Source of the DNA: Stappia albiluteola
GTDB lineage: Bacteria > Pseudomonadota > Alphaproteobacteria > Rhizobiales > Stappiaceae
NCBI RefSeq assembly: GCF_014050225.1
Contig: NZ_JACFXV010000044.1
Coordinates: forward strand, 1-64,000
Reading direction: 5' to 3'
DNA: 64,000 nucleotides
The position numbers were made by a program, and so were the translations under genes. This document shows positions 54,249 through 61,821 of the stretch, in pieces. Below the pieces are notes generated by a model that worked only from the letters and a program-made list of their open reading frames with translations, had not been told where the DNA came from and made no database searches. The stretch's first letter is position 1. Each line of letters opens with the position of its first letter.

Positions 54249-54988
54249 AGCACATGACAAATGCGACTTCCTGGCGCCCGAAGCGGGCGATGATGCTGGC
54301 AGCCGGCCTCGGCAAACGGATGCGGCCGGTGACGGCGACCACACCCAAGCCCTTGATCGAGATTGGCGGCAAGGCGTTGATCGACCACGGGCTGGACAAG
54401 CTACAGGCCGCCGGCATCGGGCAGTGCGTGGTGAATGTCCATTATCTCGCCGACCTGGTCGAAGTGCATATGGCGAAGCGCGAGATGCCGCGCATCGTCA
54501 TTTCCGATGAGCGGAACAGCCTGCTCGAAACCGGCGGAGGCATCCGGAAAGCGCTGCCACTGCTCGGCGAAGAGGCTTTTCTGCTGCTGAATTCCGACAG
54601 TACCTGGATCGAGGGCGTGACGCCCAACCTGGAGCATCTGATCCATCAGTGGGATGAGGAAAGAATGGACATCCTCCTGCTGCTTTCGGAAATCGTGGCA
54701 AGCGTCGGCTATGACGGACGCGGCGACTTCGACATGGCAAAGGACGGCAAGCTGTCCCGCCGGATCGAACGCTCAGTGACGCCGTTTGCCTATGCGGGCG
54801 CCGCAATCCTGCATCCGCGCATCTTCGCCGATACGCCGGAGGGGGCTTTTTCGCTGAACCTGCTTTTCGACCGGGCGATCGAGGCCGGCAGGCTTCATGG
54901 CGTTCAGATGGAAGGTGTCTGGCTCCATGTCGGCACGCCGGAAGCGATTACGGAGGCCGAGCGCGCGATCCTGGAAAGCGCCGACTGA
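54245..54988 (+). CDS. MurU-like nucleotidyltransferase
   Basis: A 247-residue sugar-1-phosphate nucleotidyltransferase. The N-terminal AMMLAAGLGKRMRPVT signature, PKPLIEI, LLETGGGIRKALP and LLNSDS motifs are diagnostic. With the AmgK-like kinase in front (ATGA overlap at 54245-54248), it probably makes UDP-N-acetylmuramate from recycled N-acetylmuramate-1-phosphate, a route that bypasses MurA/MurB and is linked to fosfomycin tolerance in other bacteria. The substrate is inferred from context and family, not proven. Confidence 0.85.
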   Translation: MKHMTNATSWRPKRAMMLAAGLGKRMRPVTATTPKPLIEIGGKALIDHGLDKLQAAGIGQCVVNVHYLADLVEVHMAKREMPRIVISDERNSLLETGGGIRKALPLLGEEAFLLLNSDSTWIEGVTPNLEHLIHQWDEERMDILLLLSEIVASVGYDGRGDFDMAKDGKLSRRIERSVTPFAYAGAAILHPRIFADTPEGAFSLNLLFDRAIEAGRLHGVQMEGVWLHVGTPEAITEAERAILESAD

Positions 54989-55031
54989 TCTTTTTGCGCG
55001 GGCATTGGAGGCTGGCGGCTTTCCGGTCAGA

Positions 55032-58000
55032 ATGGCTGAACGAATCTATTCATTAGAGCCGATGCCAGCACGCCCGAGCCTTTTCACCATTCCGCCGACC
55101 GCACCATTCCTGGAAACGCTGGTCGATGCCCTTGTCGAGGGGCGCCTGGTGCCGGGCTTCGATCCGAAATCCGATCCCCTCTCGCTCGCGGATGTGACGC
55201 TCTACCTGCCGACCCGGCGCGCGGCGCGCGCCCTGCCGGACCTGTTTCGTCGGAGGCTTGGAACATCGGCCAGCCTGCTCCCCGTCATCCGACCGCTCGG
55301 CGACGTGGATGAGGATGAGCATGTGCTGCGTGCCGCACCGGACGCGACCGGCCTGCCGCCGCCCATCCCGCCGATGGAACGTCTGCTCGCGATGACGCGG
55401 CTGGTGCGCGGCTGGAAGGGGGCACTGCGCAGGGACGTGCTTGGCCTATCGCCGGACGAGCCGCTGCGCCTTCCAGCCTCCGCCGCCGATGCGGCGTGGC
55501 TTGCCGGCGACCTGCTGTCGCTGATGGACGAGGTTGCAACCGAAGAGGCGGGCTGGGCCGGTCTTCTTTCGCTCGTGCCGGACGACCACGCCCGCTACTG
55601 GCAGATCACGCTCGACTTCCTGAAGATCGCCATGGAGGCATGGCCGGCATATCTCACAGAGCACGGGGCGATGGACCCGAAGGCGCGGCGCTCGGCGCTC
55701 ATTCGCAGGGAGGCGGAGCGGCTCGCCGCCACGCCTCCGCGCGGGCCCGTCATTGTGGCCGGAACCACAGGCTCCATTCCCGCGACGGCGGCGTTGCTGA
55801 AGGCTGTCGCCAGTTTGCCGACAGGGGCAATTGTCCTGCCCGGCCTCGATCTCGGCCTGGATGACAGAAGCTACGAGGCCTTGGGCGCCCCGGGCGAGGA
55901 AATCGCCGTTCCCGGTCACCCGCAATACAGTCTGAAACAGCTTCTTGCCGCGCTGGGAGCCACGCGGGCCGATGTGATGCCGCTCGCGACGGCGGAAAGT
56001 GCGCCGCTCGCCAGCCGCGAAAATCTGGTGTCGAAGGCGCTCCTTCCCGCGGAGACGACCGATGCCTGGCCCGGCTTTCTGAAGAGCGTGCCGGTGGCGG
56101 AGCGCAGCAGAGCCTTCGGGGACGTTTCCCTGCTCGTCGCACGCAACGAGGCGGAGGAAGCGCTGGCGGTATCTGTGGCGCTGCGCGAAGCGGTGGAAGC
56201 AGGCCTGACGGTATCGCTTGTTTCGCCCGATCGTACCCTGGCCCGGCGCGTGGCCGTCGATCTCGCGCGTTGGGGAATAAACGTCGACGATTCCGCAGGT
56301 CGCCCGCTCGACCAGACGCCTCCGGCGATCCTGGCTACCCTTGCCGCAGGGCTGGCGCTCGGCGGCATGGAGCCGGTCGATCTGCTCGCTCTCCTGAAAC
56401 ACCCGCTTGCGCGCTTCGGCTGGCAGGCAAAGGAGGTGAGAGCCGCAGCGCGCGCGCTTGAGCGTGGCGTCCTGCGCGGGCCGCGCGCCCGTCCCGGCAC
56501 GGCGGGCCTGAAGGCGGCAATCGCGGCGGCTCGCAGCGCGATCGAGGATCGGCATACGCCGCGCTGGAAGAAACTGGTCGATGACGACTGGCTCGCTGTC
56601 GAGGAACTCGCCGACCGCCTGGCGAACGCATTGTCTCCACTCGAAACGCTGCTTGCCGCCTCGGGGGAACTGCCGGTCGAAGAGCTTGTGCGCGCGCATC
56701 TGGAGTGTCTGTCGCGGATCGGGCGCGACGAAACGGGCAGCGATGCGGAGGTCTATGCCGGCGAGGCCGGCGACGCGCTCGCGCTTGCCATGTCCTCGCT
56801 GCTCGAGGCCGGCGACACCGGCCTTACGGTTCCCGCAGTTGAGTGGCCCGCCGTCTTCGCCGCGCTGATTTCCGGCATCAACGTGCGCCGCCGGCTGCCG
56901 GGCGATCCGAGGATCGCGATCCTCGGCCCGCTGGAAGCGCGCCTGCAGCGGCCCGATATCGTCATTCTCGGCGGCCTCAACGAGGGGACCTGGCCGCAGC
57001 GCATGCGCAACGATCCCTGGCTCAATCGGCCGATGAAGCGGGATATCGGACTGGAACCGCCGGAGCGGCGTATCGGTGCCGCAGCGCATGACTTTTGCGA
57101 AGGCATGGGCGCGACCCGGGTCATACTGTCACGGGCGGAGCGGGCCGATGGCGCCCCGACGGTGACTTCGCGCTGGCTGCAACGGCTGACGACCCTGCTT
57201 GGCAAGGAAGTTACGACGGAGATGCGGGAGCGGGGCGAGCGCTACCGCCGTCTCGCGGGGCTGCTCGACCGCCTCGACGAGCCTGTCGTGCCTGCGTCGC
57301 GGCCGGCGCCGAAGCCGCCGCTTGCCGCGCGGCCCGACCGGCTTTCCGTCACCGAGATCGAGACGTTGATCCGCGATCCCTATGCGATCTTCGCCAGGCG
57401 TATCCTGAGGCTGGACGAAGTTGAGCCGATCGGTGGCGAGCCCGGAGCATCCGAGCGCGGACAGATCATCCATGACTGCCTCGCCCGCTTTCTGGAAAAC
57501 TGGAAAGGGCCGTTCGACAGTTCGGCGCTCGATGAACTGATCGCGATAGGCCGGGATCGATTTGCGCCGCTTGAAGCCTTTCCGGCCGTCAAGGCGCTCT
57601 GGTGGCCCCGTTTCCTGCGCGTTGCGCAGGCTTTCGTCGGCTTCGAGGCGGAACGCTCCCCGCAGCTTGTCGGACGCCATCTGGAAATCGGCGGCGGCAT
57701 GGAGATCTCCTTCCCGGGCGCTCGCACGGTCCGCCTCGTCGGCCGTGCCGACCGTATCGACGAAATGGCCGACGGCTCGCTGGCGATCATCGACTACAAG
57801 ACCGGCCAGCCACCGTCGCTAAAGCAGGTGGAGGCATTGCTCGCGCCGCAAATGCCGCTCGAAGCGGCACTCGTGCGGGCGGGCGGGTTCGACGGGATTT
57901 CTTCGGATGCTCATGTCTCGGAGCTTGTCTACATCCGGCTTTCCGGCGGCAAGCCGCCGCTCGATGTCCTGCCACGCAATCCGAAGGAACGGTCGATCTC

Positions 58001-58172
58001 CGAACTTGCGGAGGACGCGCTCGCGCGCACGACGCAACTGATTGCGGCTTACGAGAAACCGGACAAGGGTTACCTGTCGCGCGCCCGCGTGATGGAGGAG
58101 CGCGCCTTCGGTGGTGCTTATGACCATCTGGCCCGCGTGCAGGAATGGTCGCTCGGCGAGGGAGAGGACTAG
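55032..58172 (+). CDS. addB: Double-strand break repair protein AddB
   Basis: A 1046-residue subunit of the AddAB helicase-nuclease, which resects broken DNA ends to load RecA (the RecBCD counterpart). The N-terminal IPP-x-APFLETLVDAL region, LPTRRAARAL, the ILGGLNEGTWPQ region and a C-terminal PD-(D/E)XK nuclease (LAIIDYKTGQPP) fit alphaproteobacterial AddB. The start may instead be the ATG at 55062. The stop TAG uses TA plus the first G of an inserted element (58172-58330); before insertion it was probably TAA overlapping the addA start. Confidence 0.93.
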   Translation: MAERIYSLEPMPARPSLFTIPPTAPFLETLVDALVEGRLVPGFDPKSDPLSLADVTLYLPTRRAARALPDLFRRRLGTSASLLPVIRPLGDVDEDEHVLRAAPDATGLPPPIPPMERLLAMTRLVRGWKGALRRDVLGLSPDEPLRLPASAADAAWLAGDLLSLMDEVATEEAGWAGLLSLVPDDHARYWQITLDFLKIAMEAWPAYLTEHGAMDPKARRSALIRREAERLAATPPRGPVIVAGTTGSIPATAALLKAVASLPTGAIVLPGLDLGLDDRSYEALGAPGEEIAVPGHPQYSLKQLLAALGATRADVMPLATAESAPLASRENLVSKALLPAETTDAWPGFLKSVPVAERSRAFGDVSLLVARNEAEEALAVSVALREAVEAGLTVSLVSPDRTLARRVAVDLARWGINVDDSAGRPLDQTPPAILATLAAGLALGGMEPVDLLALLKHPLARFGWQAKEVRAAARALERGVLRGPRARPGTAGLKAAIAAARSAIEDRHTPRWKKLVDDDWLAVEELADRLANALSPLETLLAASGELPVEELVRAHLECLSRIGRDETGSDAEVYAGEAGDALALAMSSLLEAGDTGLTVPAVEWPAVFAALISGINVRRRLPGDPRIAILGPLEARLQRPDIVILGGLNEGTWPQRMRNDPWLNRPMKRDIGLEPPERRIGAAAHDFCEGMGATRVILSRAERADGAPTVTSRWLQRLTTLLGKEVTTEMRERGERYRRLAGLLDRLDEPVVPASRPAPKPPLAARPDRLSVTEIETLIRDPYAIFARRILRLDEVEPIGGEPGASERGQIIHDCLARFLENWKGPFDSSALDELIAIGRDRFAPLEAFPAVKALWWPRFLRVAQAFVGFEAERSPQLVGRHLEIGGGMEISFPGARTVRLVGRADRIDEMADGSLAIIDYKTGQPPSLKQVEALLAPQMPLEAALVRAGGFDGISSDAHVSELVYIRLSGGKPPLDVLPRNPKERSISELAEDALARTTQLIAAYEKPDKGYLSRARVMEERAFGGAYDHLARVQEWSLGEGED

Positions 58173-58330
58173 GGGCAGGACTCACTAATTAGACTGGAAT
58201 GGCGATCGAGATGACGAGAGATGGAAGGAATAGCGCGAAGATCGGGGTCATACCCCCGGTCGAGGGCTTTGACGCGGCAGATCGAAGTCAGCTCGATCGC
58301 CATTCCAGCCAAATTAATGGGTCCTGCCCC
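58172..58330. mobile_element. MITE-like element with 39-bp inverted repeats in the addB-addA junction
   Basis: The 159-bp element has arms at 58172-58210 and 58292-58330 that match as inverted repeats at 35 of 39 positions (ends GGGGCAGGAC; inner CTGGAATGGCGATCGAG identical). TGAC/GTCA extends the pairing inward. It is flanked by TA on both sides (58170-58171 and 58331-58332), as expected for a TA target duplication. It encodes no protein. The interior has a small GGGG/CCCC hairpin. It fits a non-autonomous IS630/Tc1-type MITE; a REP-doublet (REPIN) is the alternative. Only one copy is in this window. Confidence 0.75.
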
Positions 58331-58332
58331 TA

Positions 58333-61300
58333 ATGAACCGCCCGCAAATCCCGGCGTCGACCCTGCATCGCCAGGCCACGGCCGCCGATCCGGCGACGTC
58401 AGCCTGGGTGAGCGCCAATGCCGGTTCCGGCAAAACCTTCGTCCTCGCTCGTCGTGTCGTCCGCCTGCTGCTTGCGGGAACCGAGCCTTCGCGCATCCTG
58501 TGCCTGACCTTCACCAAGGCTGCCGCTGCCGAAATGGCGACCCGCGTCTTCGAGACCCTGGGCGCCTGGACCGGGTTCGATGACGAAGCCCTGGCGGAAG
58601 AGCTTGAGGACATCGAGGGCAGAAGGCCCACGGCGGCGCGGATCGCCCGTGCGCGGCACCTTTTCGCCAAGGCGCTTGAAACGCCGGGCGGTCTCAAGAT
58701 CCAGACGATCCACGCCTTCTGCGAGGCCCTGCTGCATCAGTTCCCGCTGGAAGCCAATGTCGCCGGCCATTTCACCGTGCTCGACGACAGGTTGTCGGCG
58801 GAGCTGCTTGCCGAAGCCCGGGCGCGGGTGCTGAACGCGGCCGAAAACGAGCCGGAGAGCGCATTGGGGCAGGCGCTCTCCTTCCTCATCGGCGAGATGG
58901 CGGATCTTTCGGTCGAAGGCGCGCTCAAGGAGATGGTCGGCCGGCGCGACGCTTTCCTGCGCTGGATCGTCGACTATCCGTCGCTGGAGGACGGACTTGC
59001 CGACCTTGCGCGGCGTTTCGGCGTCACGCCCGGCGAGAAGGTGGACGACATCGAGCAGGAAATCCTCGATGGATCGCTGTTCGATGACAGCGCGAAGGCG
59101 GCGCTTGCCGATGCGTTGAGCGGTGGCGGTGTCACCGACCGCAGGAATGCCGAAGCGATCCGGCGTGTGATCGGGCAGGACGGGGCGCCTTTCCGCGATA
59201 TCTGGCTGGAGATATTCCTGACCAAATCGCTTGAGCCGCGCAAATCCCTGGCGACGAAGGCGGTCGCTGCGGTGCATCCGCATCTTGCCGCGCTGATGGG
59301 AGAGGAACAGGCACGCCTCCTCGCCTTGCTCGACCGCCGCCGCGCGGTCCTGACGATGGAGGGGACGGCGGCGATCCTGCGTTTGGCGGATGCCATGCTT
59401 GGCGCCTACGAGACCGAAAAGACCCGCCGCGGCCTGCTCGACTTCGAGGATCTTGTGGTGCGCGCGGCCAACCTGCTTTCGCGTTCGGATGCCGCCCTTT
59501 GGGTGCAGTACAAGCTCGACAGGGGGCTCGACCATATCCTTGTCGACGAGGCGCAGGACACCAGTCCGCGGCAATGGGAAGTGATCCGGGCGCTGGCGGA
59601 GGAGTTTTTCGCAGGGGATGGTGCGCGCGATACTGCGCGGACCATTTTCGCGGTCGGCGACGAGAAGCAGTCGATCTATTCCTTCCAGGGAGCGGTGCCG
59701 GCGCATTTCGCCCGCATGCGCAGGCACTTCCAGCAGCAGGCGGCAAAGGCTGCGACCTCGTTCGAAGCGGTCGACCTGACGCTTTCCTTCCGCTCGACGC
59801 CTGATGTGCTCGGCGCGGTCGACAAGGTTTTCGCCGATCCATCCGCGCGCAAGGGCCTGTCGCAGGACGGCGACGCGCCCGTGCACGAGGCCATTCGCCG
59901 CAACGATCCCGGTCTGGTGGAAATCTGGCCGCTCGAAGCGGAAGAAGAGGTCGAGGCGTCCGACGACTGGACGGCGCCGATAGACCGGGTCTCCGCGTCG
60001 AGCCCGATGATGCGCGTGGCGCGGCGGATCGCGCAGGCGGTCGATGAGTGGTGCACGAGTGGTGCAGCAACGGCCGGTGATGTGCTGGTCCTGGTGCGCA
60101 AACGGGGGCCGTTTGTCGAAGCGTTGACGCGGGAGATGAAGCGGCTCGGTGTTCCGGTTGCCGGCAGCGACCGGCTGGTGCTGAGCGAGCATATCGCGGT
60201 GCTGGATCTCGTCGCGCTCGGCCGGTTCCTGTTGTTGCCGGAGGACGATCTTTCGCTTGCCGCGGTGCTGAAGAGCCCGCTCTTCGGCCTGGACGACGAC
60301 GCGTTGTTCGAGATCGCGCGTGATACTCCGGAGCAGCCGAGGGCCGGCACGCTGTGGCAGTCACTGCTGCGGCATGCGAGCGCCAATGAACGCTGGGACA
60401 AGATACGCGAGCAGCTGGAGACCTGGCGCCGTCGGGCCGATTTCATGCCGCCTTTCGAATTCTATTCCCGTCTTCTGGGAGCCGATGGCGGGCGCGGCCG
60501 CTTTCGGTCCCGCTTCGGCGACGAGGTGGACGACATCCTCGACGAGTTCCTCGCCCTGACCATCGTCTTCGAGCAGACGGGCACGCCGGGGCTCGAAGGC
60601 TTTCTCGCCTGGCTAGCGGCTGCCCCCACCGAGATCAAGCGGGAACTCTCAAGCGCCGAGGGCGTGGTGCGCATCATGACGGTGCACGGCGCCAAGGGCC
60701 TCGAGGCTCCGGTAGTCATTCTCGCCGATCCGGGGGCGGCGCCCGTCTCGGCGCGGCACGATCCGACCATGCTGGAATTTGCGCTAGGTAGCGATGAAGA
60801 CCGCCCGCCGGCGCTCGTCTGGCTGCCCGGCAAGGCAGGGCGCACCGCCTGGCACGAGGAGGCGCTGGCAGACCTGCGCGGCAAGGCGGAGGAGGAATAT
60901 CGCCGCCTTCTCTATGTCGCCATGACGCGCGCGAAGGATCGGCTGGTGGTCTGCGGCTGGACCGGCAAGACCGCGCCCCGGGAAGATACCTGGTACGCAC
61001 TGGTCAATCGGGCGCTGGCAGGGGATTCCACGGAAGAATTTTCGGCGGACGGGAGCCTTTCCCGCCTGCTGTGGCGAAGGGAAGGCCAGAAGGCGGTGGT
61101 CCCGATAGTTGCCGAAGGTTCCGGTAAGACGGAGGCGACCCGGTCGATCGATCGTCCCGCCTGGCTGGACCGGCCGGCATCGGCGCCGGTTCGCCAGCGC
61201 CGCCTACAGCCCTCGAAGGCCTTCGAGGCGATGGAGGCGAAGGAAGGCGTCGAAGCGCTCAGCGGCGCGGCAATGCTGGGGGCCGTGCGGGGGCCTTCCG

Positions 61301-61821
61301 ACTGGGCGCTGGAGCGGGGCCGGTTGGTCCACCGGATGCTGGAGGTCCTGCCGGAGGTTTCGCCGGAAATGCGGATTGAAGCCGCCGACCGGTTCCTGAA
61401 CCGCGCCTTGCCCTCAGCTTTTGCCGGCGAGAAGGATGGCGTGCTTGCGGAAGTGCTGGCGATTCTCGCGGACGCGCGTTTTGCCGAAGTCTTTTCCGCC
61501 AGAGCCCGCGCCGAAGTGCCGATTGTCGGCCAGATGCAAGCCCCCGACGGCGAGATCGTCGCCGTTTCGGGGCAGATCGACCGTCTGTGCGTGACCGAAG
61601 AGGAGGTGCTCATAGTCGACTACAAGACCAACAGGCTGCTTCCGGCTGATATCGACAGCGTTCCTCTCGATTATGTGACGCAGCTTGGCGTCTATCGCCA
61701 CCTCCTGAAGGGCATCTATCCGGATCGCCTCATCCGGGCGGCACTGTTGTGGACTTCCGGTCCGGTTCTCATGGAAATTCCAGCCGAAAAGATGGATGCC
61801 GCTCTTCGCGCGCTGTCGTAA
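58333..61821 (+). CDS. addA: Double-strand break repair helicase AddA
   Basis: A 1162-residue UvrD-type helicase and nuclease subunit. Motif I is NAGSGKT near residue 36, Ia is LTFTKAAAAEMA, II is VDEAQDTSPRQW, III is VGDEKQSIYSFQGA, V is MTVHGAKGLEAPVV and VI is VAMTRAKDRL. The C-terminal nuclease has LIVDYKTNRL. The ATG at 58333 directly follows the right TA of the inserted element and has no ribosome site, since CCTGCCCC precedes it. Translation may have originally been coupled to addB. Confidence 0.95.
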   Translation: MNRPQIPASTLHRQATAADPATSAWVSANAGSGKTFVLARRVVRLLLAGTEPSRILCLTFTKAAAAEMATRVFETLGAWTGFDDEALAEELEDIEGRRPTAARIARARHLFAKALETPGGLKIQTIHAFCEALLHQFPLEANVAGHFTVLDDRLSAELLAEARARVLNAAENEPESALGQALSFLIGEMADLSVEGALKEMVGRRDAFLRWIVDYPSLEDGLADLARRFGVTPGEKVDDIEQEILDGSLFDDSAKAALADALSGGGVTDRRNAEAIRRVIGQDGAPFRDIWLEIFLTKSLEPRKSLATKAVAAVHPHLAALMGEEQARLLALLDRRRAVLTMEGTAAILRLADAMLGAYETEKTRRGLLDFEDLVVRAANLLSRSDAALWVQYKLDRGLDHILVDEAQDTSPRQWEVIRALAEEFFAGDGARDTARTIFAVGDEKQSIYSFQGAVPAHFARMRRHFQQQAAKAATSFEAVDLTLSFRSTPDVLGAVDKVFADPSARKGLSQDGDAPVHEAIRRNDPGLVEIWPLEAEEEVEASDDWTAPIDRVSASSPMMRVARRIAQAVDEWCTSGAATAGDVLVLVRKRGPFVEALTREMKRLGVPVAGSDRLVLSEHIAVLDLVALGRFLLLPEDDLSLAAVLKSPLFGLDDDALFEIARDTPEQPRAGTLWQSLLRHASANERWDKIREQLETWRRRADFMPPFEFYSRLLGADGGRGRFRSRFGDEVDDILDEFLALTIVFEQTGTPGLEGFLAWLAAAPTEIKRELSSAEGVVRIMTVHGAKGLEAPVVILADPGAAPVSARHDPTMLEFALGSDEDRPPALVWLPGKAGRTAWHEEALADLRGKAEEEYRRLLYVAMTRAKDRLVVCGWTGKTAPREDTWYALVNRALAGDSTEEFSADGSLSRLLWRREGQKAVVPIVAEGSGKTEATRSIDRPAWLDRPASAPVRQRRLQPSKAFEAMEAKEGVEALSGAAMLGAVRGPSDWALERGRLVHRMLEVLPEVSPEMRIEAADRFLNRALPSAFAGEKDGVLAEVLAILADARFAEVFSARARAEVPIVGQMQAPDGEIVAVSGQIDRLCVTEEEVLIVDYKTNRLLPADIDSVPLDYVTQLGVYRHLLKGIYPDRLIRAALLWTSGPVLMEIPAEKMDAALRALS

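Follow-up and report, generated by a model that had tools for sequence, protein, structure and literature searches.

Among the palindromic repeats known from bacterial genomes, those of the ERIC, NEMIS/Correia, and RUP types lie at TA in the vicinity of genes, in many cases close to a 3′ end, while the RIME intergenic mosaic elements of rhizobia are palindromic intergenic repeats of the Rhizobiales. In REP/RAYT systems, a Y1 transposase moves short REP hairpins and does not duplicate the target. Here, we describe a gene-less palindromic element that separates addB from addA in Stappia albiluteola (assembly GCF_014050225.1, contig NZ_JACFXV010000044.1, positions 1 to 64,000; this whole stretch of 64,000 nucleotides is called the window below). 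Our results make it probable that this is a non-autonomous, gene-less IS5-type mobile element, which is moved in trans and has a fold of its own under selection. It is likened to RIME, by description only, as a palindromic intergenic repeat in Rhizobiales, and ERIC, NEMIS/Correia, and RUP are set apart, also by description, by other hosts, sizes, and transposase families. Membership in REP/RAYT was rejected, as the element has a TA duplication and IS5-type ends.

The closest described relative is IS711 (IS6501) of Brucella, which is 842 bp long with 20-bp imperfect inverted repeats and two overlapping frames, duplicates the TA of YTAR, and is associated with the palindromic repeats Bru-RS1 and Bru-RS2 (PMC2266754). 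A transposon found in a relative of S. albiluteola (locus L071) is alike in its length of about 840 bp, its two frames, and its target. The association with Bru-RS repeats is paralleled by IS5-type transposons that immediately adjoin folded elements at the TA flank and share the TA, seen in four places (L325, L326, and L327 in genome G006; L071 in G076). The Bru-RS1 and Bru-RS2 palindromes, at about 103 to 106 bp, are set apart by size alone from the two-arm long form of our element (262 to 265 bp) and from its short form (about 160 bp). With the miniature inverted-repeat transposable elements (MITEs) of the IS5 family, the element shares transposon-like ends, TA duplication, the lack of genes, and many copies, but it differs from them in its transposon-unrelated interior, its constant length, and its conserved fold with compensatory changes. 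In the open-licence part of PubMed Central, we found no description of such an element or of its end sequences.

Copies of the element, their target, and their ends

The S. albiluteola assembly, a draft of 70 contigs, contains eight more copies that have paired ends and each measure 263 to 265 bp without the TAs, as well as further copies of one part of the fold, arm A, behind other ends. Our copy survey comprised 145 loci from 20 sources (18 genomes or metagenome-assembled genomes [MAGs] and two plasmids), of which eight gave no end pair and were not counted further, leaving 137 paired copies. A first-pass annotation, made from the letters of the window, had suggested a search for other TA-flanked copies, and these exist: 114 of the 137 carry TA on both sides. 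When the target was rebuilt for these 114, it read YTAR in 108 (CTAG 70, CTAA 16, TTAG 15, TTAA 7) and something else in six. With the TAs excluded, 129 of the 137 paired copies measure 262 to 265 bp, the other eight being 40, 44, 159 (the window copy), 160, 232, 255, 363, and 529 bp, and the length is constant among copies that differ by at least 30%. A scan of the contigs of named hosts returned one locus, in a Nitratireductor MAG, and plasmid-collection searches (E ≤ 1e-3) returned only Nitratireductor and Phyllobacterium, plus Bartonella over 17% of the query.

Mobility is shown by the 529-bp locus L229 (G102:C1:4769994-4770526), where a sister element is nested within another copy, both with arm A. 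This nested sister has ends TAGGGTACGGACACATAAAT and the same architecture. Two other loci of genome G102, L218 and L231, are tiny palindromes of 44 and 40 bp with little beyond the two ends. Further, the loci L156 to L162 and L164 of genome G071 have the same length and ends, and their interiors are 52 to 54% like that of the long-form copy L003 in alignment; they may form a separate subfamily or carry a different interior. Solitary 19-bp ends without a partner occur twice in the S. albiluteola genome, near 3356 of L066 (C63:86356) and near 3075 of L067 (C49:227575), where apparent gene ends adjoin. Similar solitary ends are present in L081, L082, and L084, and all of these may be deletion remnants.

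The IS5-family transposons of relatives (L071 and L119) are about 840 bp long with ends TAGGCTCAGGACCTATTAATT and TAGGCTCAGGACTCATTGA, and the two frames of L071 match transpos_IS5_3 (NF033580), DUF4096 (PF13340), and DDE_Tnp_1 (PF01609). The element ends match the ends of these transposons over 19 to 29 bp at about 85 to 95%. When seven elements were compared with the two transposons, significant matches were confined to the ends, and the rest was no better than chance; an origin as a MITE derived from the transposon by deletion was rejected on this unrelated interior. A full-length transposase with the window copy's own ends, GGGGCAGGAC, for which the first-pass annotation had suggested looking, was not found; the closest transposase ends, GGCTCAGGAC, were in relatives and not in the genome itself. 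Pattern searches of that genome for an autonomous copy of 1 to 2 kb with the same ends gave, among the matches listed, element ends and the two solitary ends only. On the explanation that we favor, an IS711-like transposase of the IS5 family (about 840 bp in length, with two frames, and with TA duplication at YTAR) would move the element in trans. The element would differ from an ordinary miniature element in being transposon-like only in its outer 20 bp or so, with the rest constituting a fold of its own of 262 to 265 bp.

The fold and how it changes

An alignment of 16 diverged copies (17 had been picked, and L156 was left out) yielded a long-form fold that consists of a terminal stem, P1, followed by arm A, a small hairpin, and arm B. 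In this fold, 94.2% of the cells were paired, compared with 30 to 45% when it was slid by 1 to 3 columns. Changes on both sides were present in 39 of 85 pairs, and double-change cells numbered 127, compared with 36.7 ± 4.8 in shuffled controls (0/500) and 13 to 23 in slid ones. When L003's own fold was laid on 11 distant rows, Watson-Crick cells made up 300 of 341 in P1, 246 of 320 in arm A, and 280 of 319 in arm B, and double changes (16, 69, and 72, respectively) were well above those of slid versions. The internal loops are unpaired across lineages.

The kind of change depends on where it is counted. Within genomes, departures from the local consensus were 145 single-sided vs 16 compensated, whereas between 11 lineage consensuses, they were 91 single-sided vs 422 compensated, the latter being all-pairs counts that are not independent; all G071 copies were left out of both comparisons. 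On these counts, resident copies decay and propagating lineages keep their pairing, which fits selection on the fold during propagation. We infer that the fold is selected because, with it, the element moves more readily or is better tolerated.

One alternative is an ordinary MITE, with ends recognized by a transposase and a meaningless interior whose length and fold are merely inherited. The transposon-matching ends, the TA duplication, the YTAR target, and the lack of genes would all suit such an element. However, its interior covaries far above the shuffled and slid controls, its length is constant despite divergence of at least 30%, its compensated changes lie between lineages and not within genomes, and the same arm A recurs behind other kinds of ends. 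This explanation is already disfavored, and we consider it unlikely. A second alternative is that the arms match through in-place copying of one arm onto the other (template switching at palindromes), without selection. The window copy lends it some appeal: its two ends share one T-to-G change, and the sole mismatch at the base of arm A is mended by a change in this copy. Both of its ends (58172-58177 and 58325-58330) read GGGGCAGGAC, and the other copies in the genome have GGGTCAGGAC or close variants. Such copying, if it continued, would predict the opposite of the single-sided excess seen in resident copies, so these departures speak against it, and the internal loops that stay unpaired across lineages do likewise; we regard it as quite improbable.

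Several points weigh against a mobile element with a selected fold. First, TA is missing from one flank or both in 23 of the 137 paired copies, through either decay or another mechanism, and a search of the draft S. albiluteola assembly found no transposase with matching ends among its three IS5-like matches, which are at most 45% identical and of which two lie at contig edges. Second, the structure used for counting was derived from the same 16-copy alignment, the between-lineage counts carry the dependence noted above, and the distant rows did not bear out the small hairpin in the L003 register, with 16 of 32 cells, compared with 28 of 31 when it was slid by −1. Third, the free reverse-strand fold of the alignment prefers G-T, with 88 G-T vs 20 A-C cells (207 vs 30 in a set of 38 copies, which leaves out eight copies below 60% identity to L003, all from G071). 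With these points counted, a mobile element with a selected fold is still the explanation that we favor.

Arm A across the Rhizobiales, and DNA versus RNA

In a sample of 199 genomes of the order, a covariance model of arm A found matches in 36 (E ≤ 0.001) and, at E < 1e-8, in 18 families, the E-values being rough. Of 21 such loci, 14 have arm A enclosed by an independent inverted repeat (18 or more of 20 bases), and the other seven have none. Between lineages, the ends around arm A come in at least eight versions, among them TAGGTCGTGGACTCATAAT, TAGGTCATGAACTCATAAA, TAGGGTGCGGACCC, and TAGGGTCAGGACCCATTA, while the long forms keep to 265 to 268 bp including the TAs. Tentatively, and with more doubt than conviction, we put forward the hypothesis that selfishness here belongs to the fold, as a DNA-structured superfamily (P1 and arm A, with or without arm B) whose core would be kept across Rhizobiales families while its ends follow different IS5-family transposases. 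Under this hypothesis, folded DNA, with extruded or single-stranded arms, would help movement, recognition, or the avoidance of harm.

Alternatively, the fold could work as RNA, as a terminator, processing site, or small RNA that is kept for its effect on flanking genes. In line with this, 39 of the 108 YTAR copies lie directly at a gene 3′ end, the RNA fold is very stable, and the free fold of the reverse strand has more G-U than A-C. RNase P on its wrong strand, folded freely, also gave 194 G-T vs 53 A-C cells. In single-sequence folds, the G-T/A-C ratios of the element were near 1 (1.01 and 1.01 on the two strands for the 16 copies; 1.13 and 0.93 for the 38), in contrast to the RNase P of relatives, which gave 1.53 on its own strand and 0.80 on the other. 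Orientation relative to the gene at whose end a copy sits was opposite in 20 cases and the same in 13 (G071 copies left out). No Rfam family scored above its cut-off: the window copy matched two miRNA models only, far below their gathering scores, and a search of seven loci gave no match on any element. No terminator-like or promoter-like site was found on the element either. The weak or absent strand bias fits a fold at the DNA level, and we infer that it is folded DNA, and not one specific RNA, through which the element acts. The reverse strand may have a role as RNA, and an RNA function kept for the sake of neighboring genes seems rather unlikely.

The addB-addA junction and insertion at stop codons

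The genes on either side of the window copy encode AddB and AddA of the alphaproteobacterial type according to NCBIfam equivalog profiles (TIGR02786, 1131 bits vs a cut-off of 486.5; TIGR02784, 1328.6 bits vs 860.75). Their positions, and those of the parts of the element, are collected in the table.

Table. Positions in the window of the element, its parts, and the adjoining genes and sites
Feature	Positions	Strand	Basis
Whole element including both TAs, 163 bp (159 bp without TAs)	58170..58332	.	sequence, repeat search, fold
Left TA of target duplication; with the element's first G, forms the addB stop TAG	58170..58171	.	
Right TA of target duplication, directly before the addA ATG	58331..58332	.	
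Left end resembling IS5-family transposon ends (GGGGCAGGACTCACTAATTAG)	58172..58192	+	
Right end resembling IS5-family transposon ends; 23 bp at 87% to the L071 transposon end	58310..58330	-	
Terminal stem P1, 5′ strand	58170..58202	.	
Arm A, conserved side arm; covariance-model match 58204-58297, 70.8 bits	58203..58299	.	
Exact junction of arm A (last base) with the P1 3′ strand (first base), where the mini hairpin and arm B present in the long form (105 bp) are missing	58299..58300	.	
Terminal stem P1, 3′ strand	58300..58332	.	
addB (TIGR02786)	54897..58172	+	ORF (open reading frame) list and profile match
addA (TIGR02784)	58333..61821	+	ORF list and profile match
GGGAGAGG, purine-rich, ribosome-site-like, probably formerly serving addA	58160..58167	+	sequence; relatives compared
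ATG within the right end, out of frame with addA, 16 nt upstream of the addA ATG; open frame to 58583	58317..58319	+	

That the window copy is an insertion, as had been proposed from the window, was borne out by comparison with relatives. Sixty were searched, loci were obtained for 29, and all 29 junctions were read; none holds an insert, and in every one, the addB stop and addA start overlap or directly abut, in the forms ATGA, GTGA, TGATG, or TAATG (6 of 29). The empty site originally envisaged, TAATG, stands only in part: the overlap exists in those six relatives, but both same-genus genomes have ATGA, and TAATG may have been the earlier state of the window strain itself. These junctions also refute a conserved regulatory palindrome of the addAB operon, to which we give practically no weight. 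Its exact position between both genes would suit such a palindrome, but it is absent from all 29 relatives read, and there are many copies elsewhere in the same genome.

As first described, the arms at 58172-58210 and 58292-58330 pair at 35 of 39 positions with TA on each flank. A repeat search lengthens them to 46 nt including the TAs (58170-58215 and 58287-58332, 89% complementary). Folded as RNA, 58170-58332 reaches −99 kcal/mol, vs −50.6 ± 4.2 in 200 shuffled sequences, none of which folds as well (z −11.6), and the hairpin persists when it is folded together with its flanks. The ORF list agrees that the element is gene-less, as no ORF of at least 80 aa is confined to 58170-58332. The window copy is short for its family: compared with L003, it is without 105 bp after 58299, P1 runs straight into arm A, and its sisters in the same genome are longer by about 105 bp in the middle. 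Three other genomes each have one short form of comparable size that carries arm A (L329, 161 bp; L345, 167 bp; L030, about 163 bp). The window copy has neither the small hairpin nor arm B, and the break lies exactly at the fold junction; these parts may have been lost in place, or the copy may have arrived short.

Both reading frames are intact, in agreement with the first-pass annotation: the addB stop TAG occupies 58170-58172, its G being the first base of the inserted element, and the addA start ATG (58333-58335) lies immediately 3′ of the right TA. The element would have inserted into CTAA at the stop/start overlap, and duplication of the TA would have kept both frames. In the same-genus genomes, a purine-rich GGGGAGGA stands right before the addA start. 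Its counterpart here, GGGAGAGG, is now 165 nt from the addA ATG, and the reported lack of a ribosome site before addA holds, with none within 20 nt upstream of the ATG. Most likely, the insert ends the tight stop-start coupling of addAB and places a very stable hairpin in the message, which may be cut by RNase III at the long stem, and AddA synthesis may have become less efficient. A bolder possibility is that the stem acts as a splint and, with the TA pair at its base, puts the former ribosome site beside the addA ATG.

The precise split of a stop and a start is real at this junction, but it is not peculiar to addB-addA, as the 39 YTAR copies mentioned above sit exactly on a gene stop codon. 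Because the target is YTAR and the element starts with G, a TAA or TAG stop is always rebuilt as TAG; given this target rule and tolerance, the clean split needs no special mechanism. With genes around copies called by our own codon-usage script, and no standard gene finder, stop sites were enriched relative to non-coding YTAR sites of the same flanks (54 stop and 380 other sites; 54 of 434; odds ratio 4.3, p 2e-8). The excess was smaller among CTAG sites alone (odds ratio 2.7, p 0.006) and against sites in the 60 bp that follow a stop (odds ratio 2.0, p 0.04; CTAG only, 1.7, p 0.35). Special recognition of stop codons was rejected as unproven, as CTAG preference and tolerance at 3′ ends suffice. 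Four copies have same-strand neighbor genes within 45 bp, and in that set, only the window copy directly abuts the next start. At L065 (2501-2770), on a plasmid of Phyllobacterium zundukense, the copy has a decayed left flank and for that reason does not belong to the set; there, the upstream gene is annotated as far as the element and the following gene from a start inside the right end, so the element may supply the start codon to the following gene.

With these results, a single odd repeat has become a testable example of how selection may act on folded DNA in a gene-less transposon parasite. The YTAR rule, with its frequent CTAG, explains why such elements often land on stop codons, where the stop is always rebuilt and no gene is broken; an operon such as addB-addA can thereby be split without the loss of a codon. 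If the core does travel behind different ends, then transposase specificity and element identity would be separable in nature.

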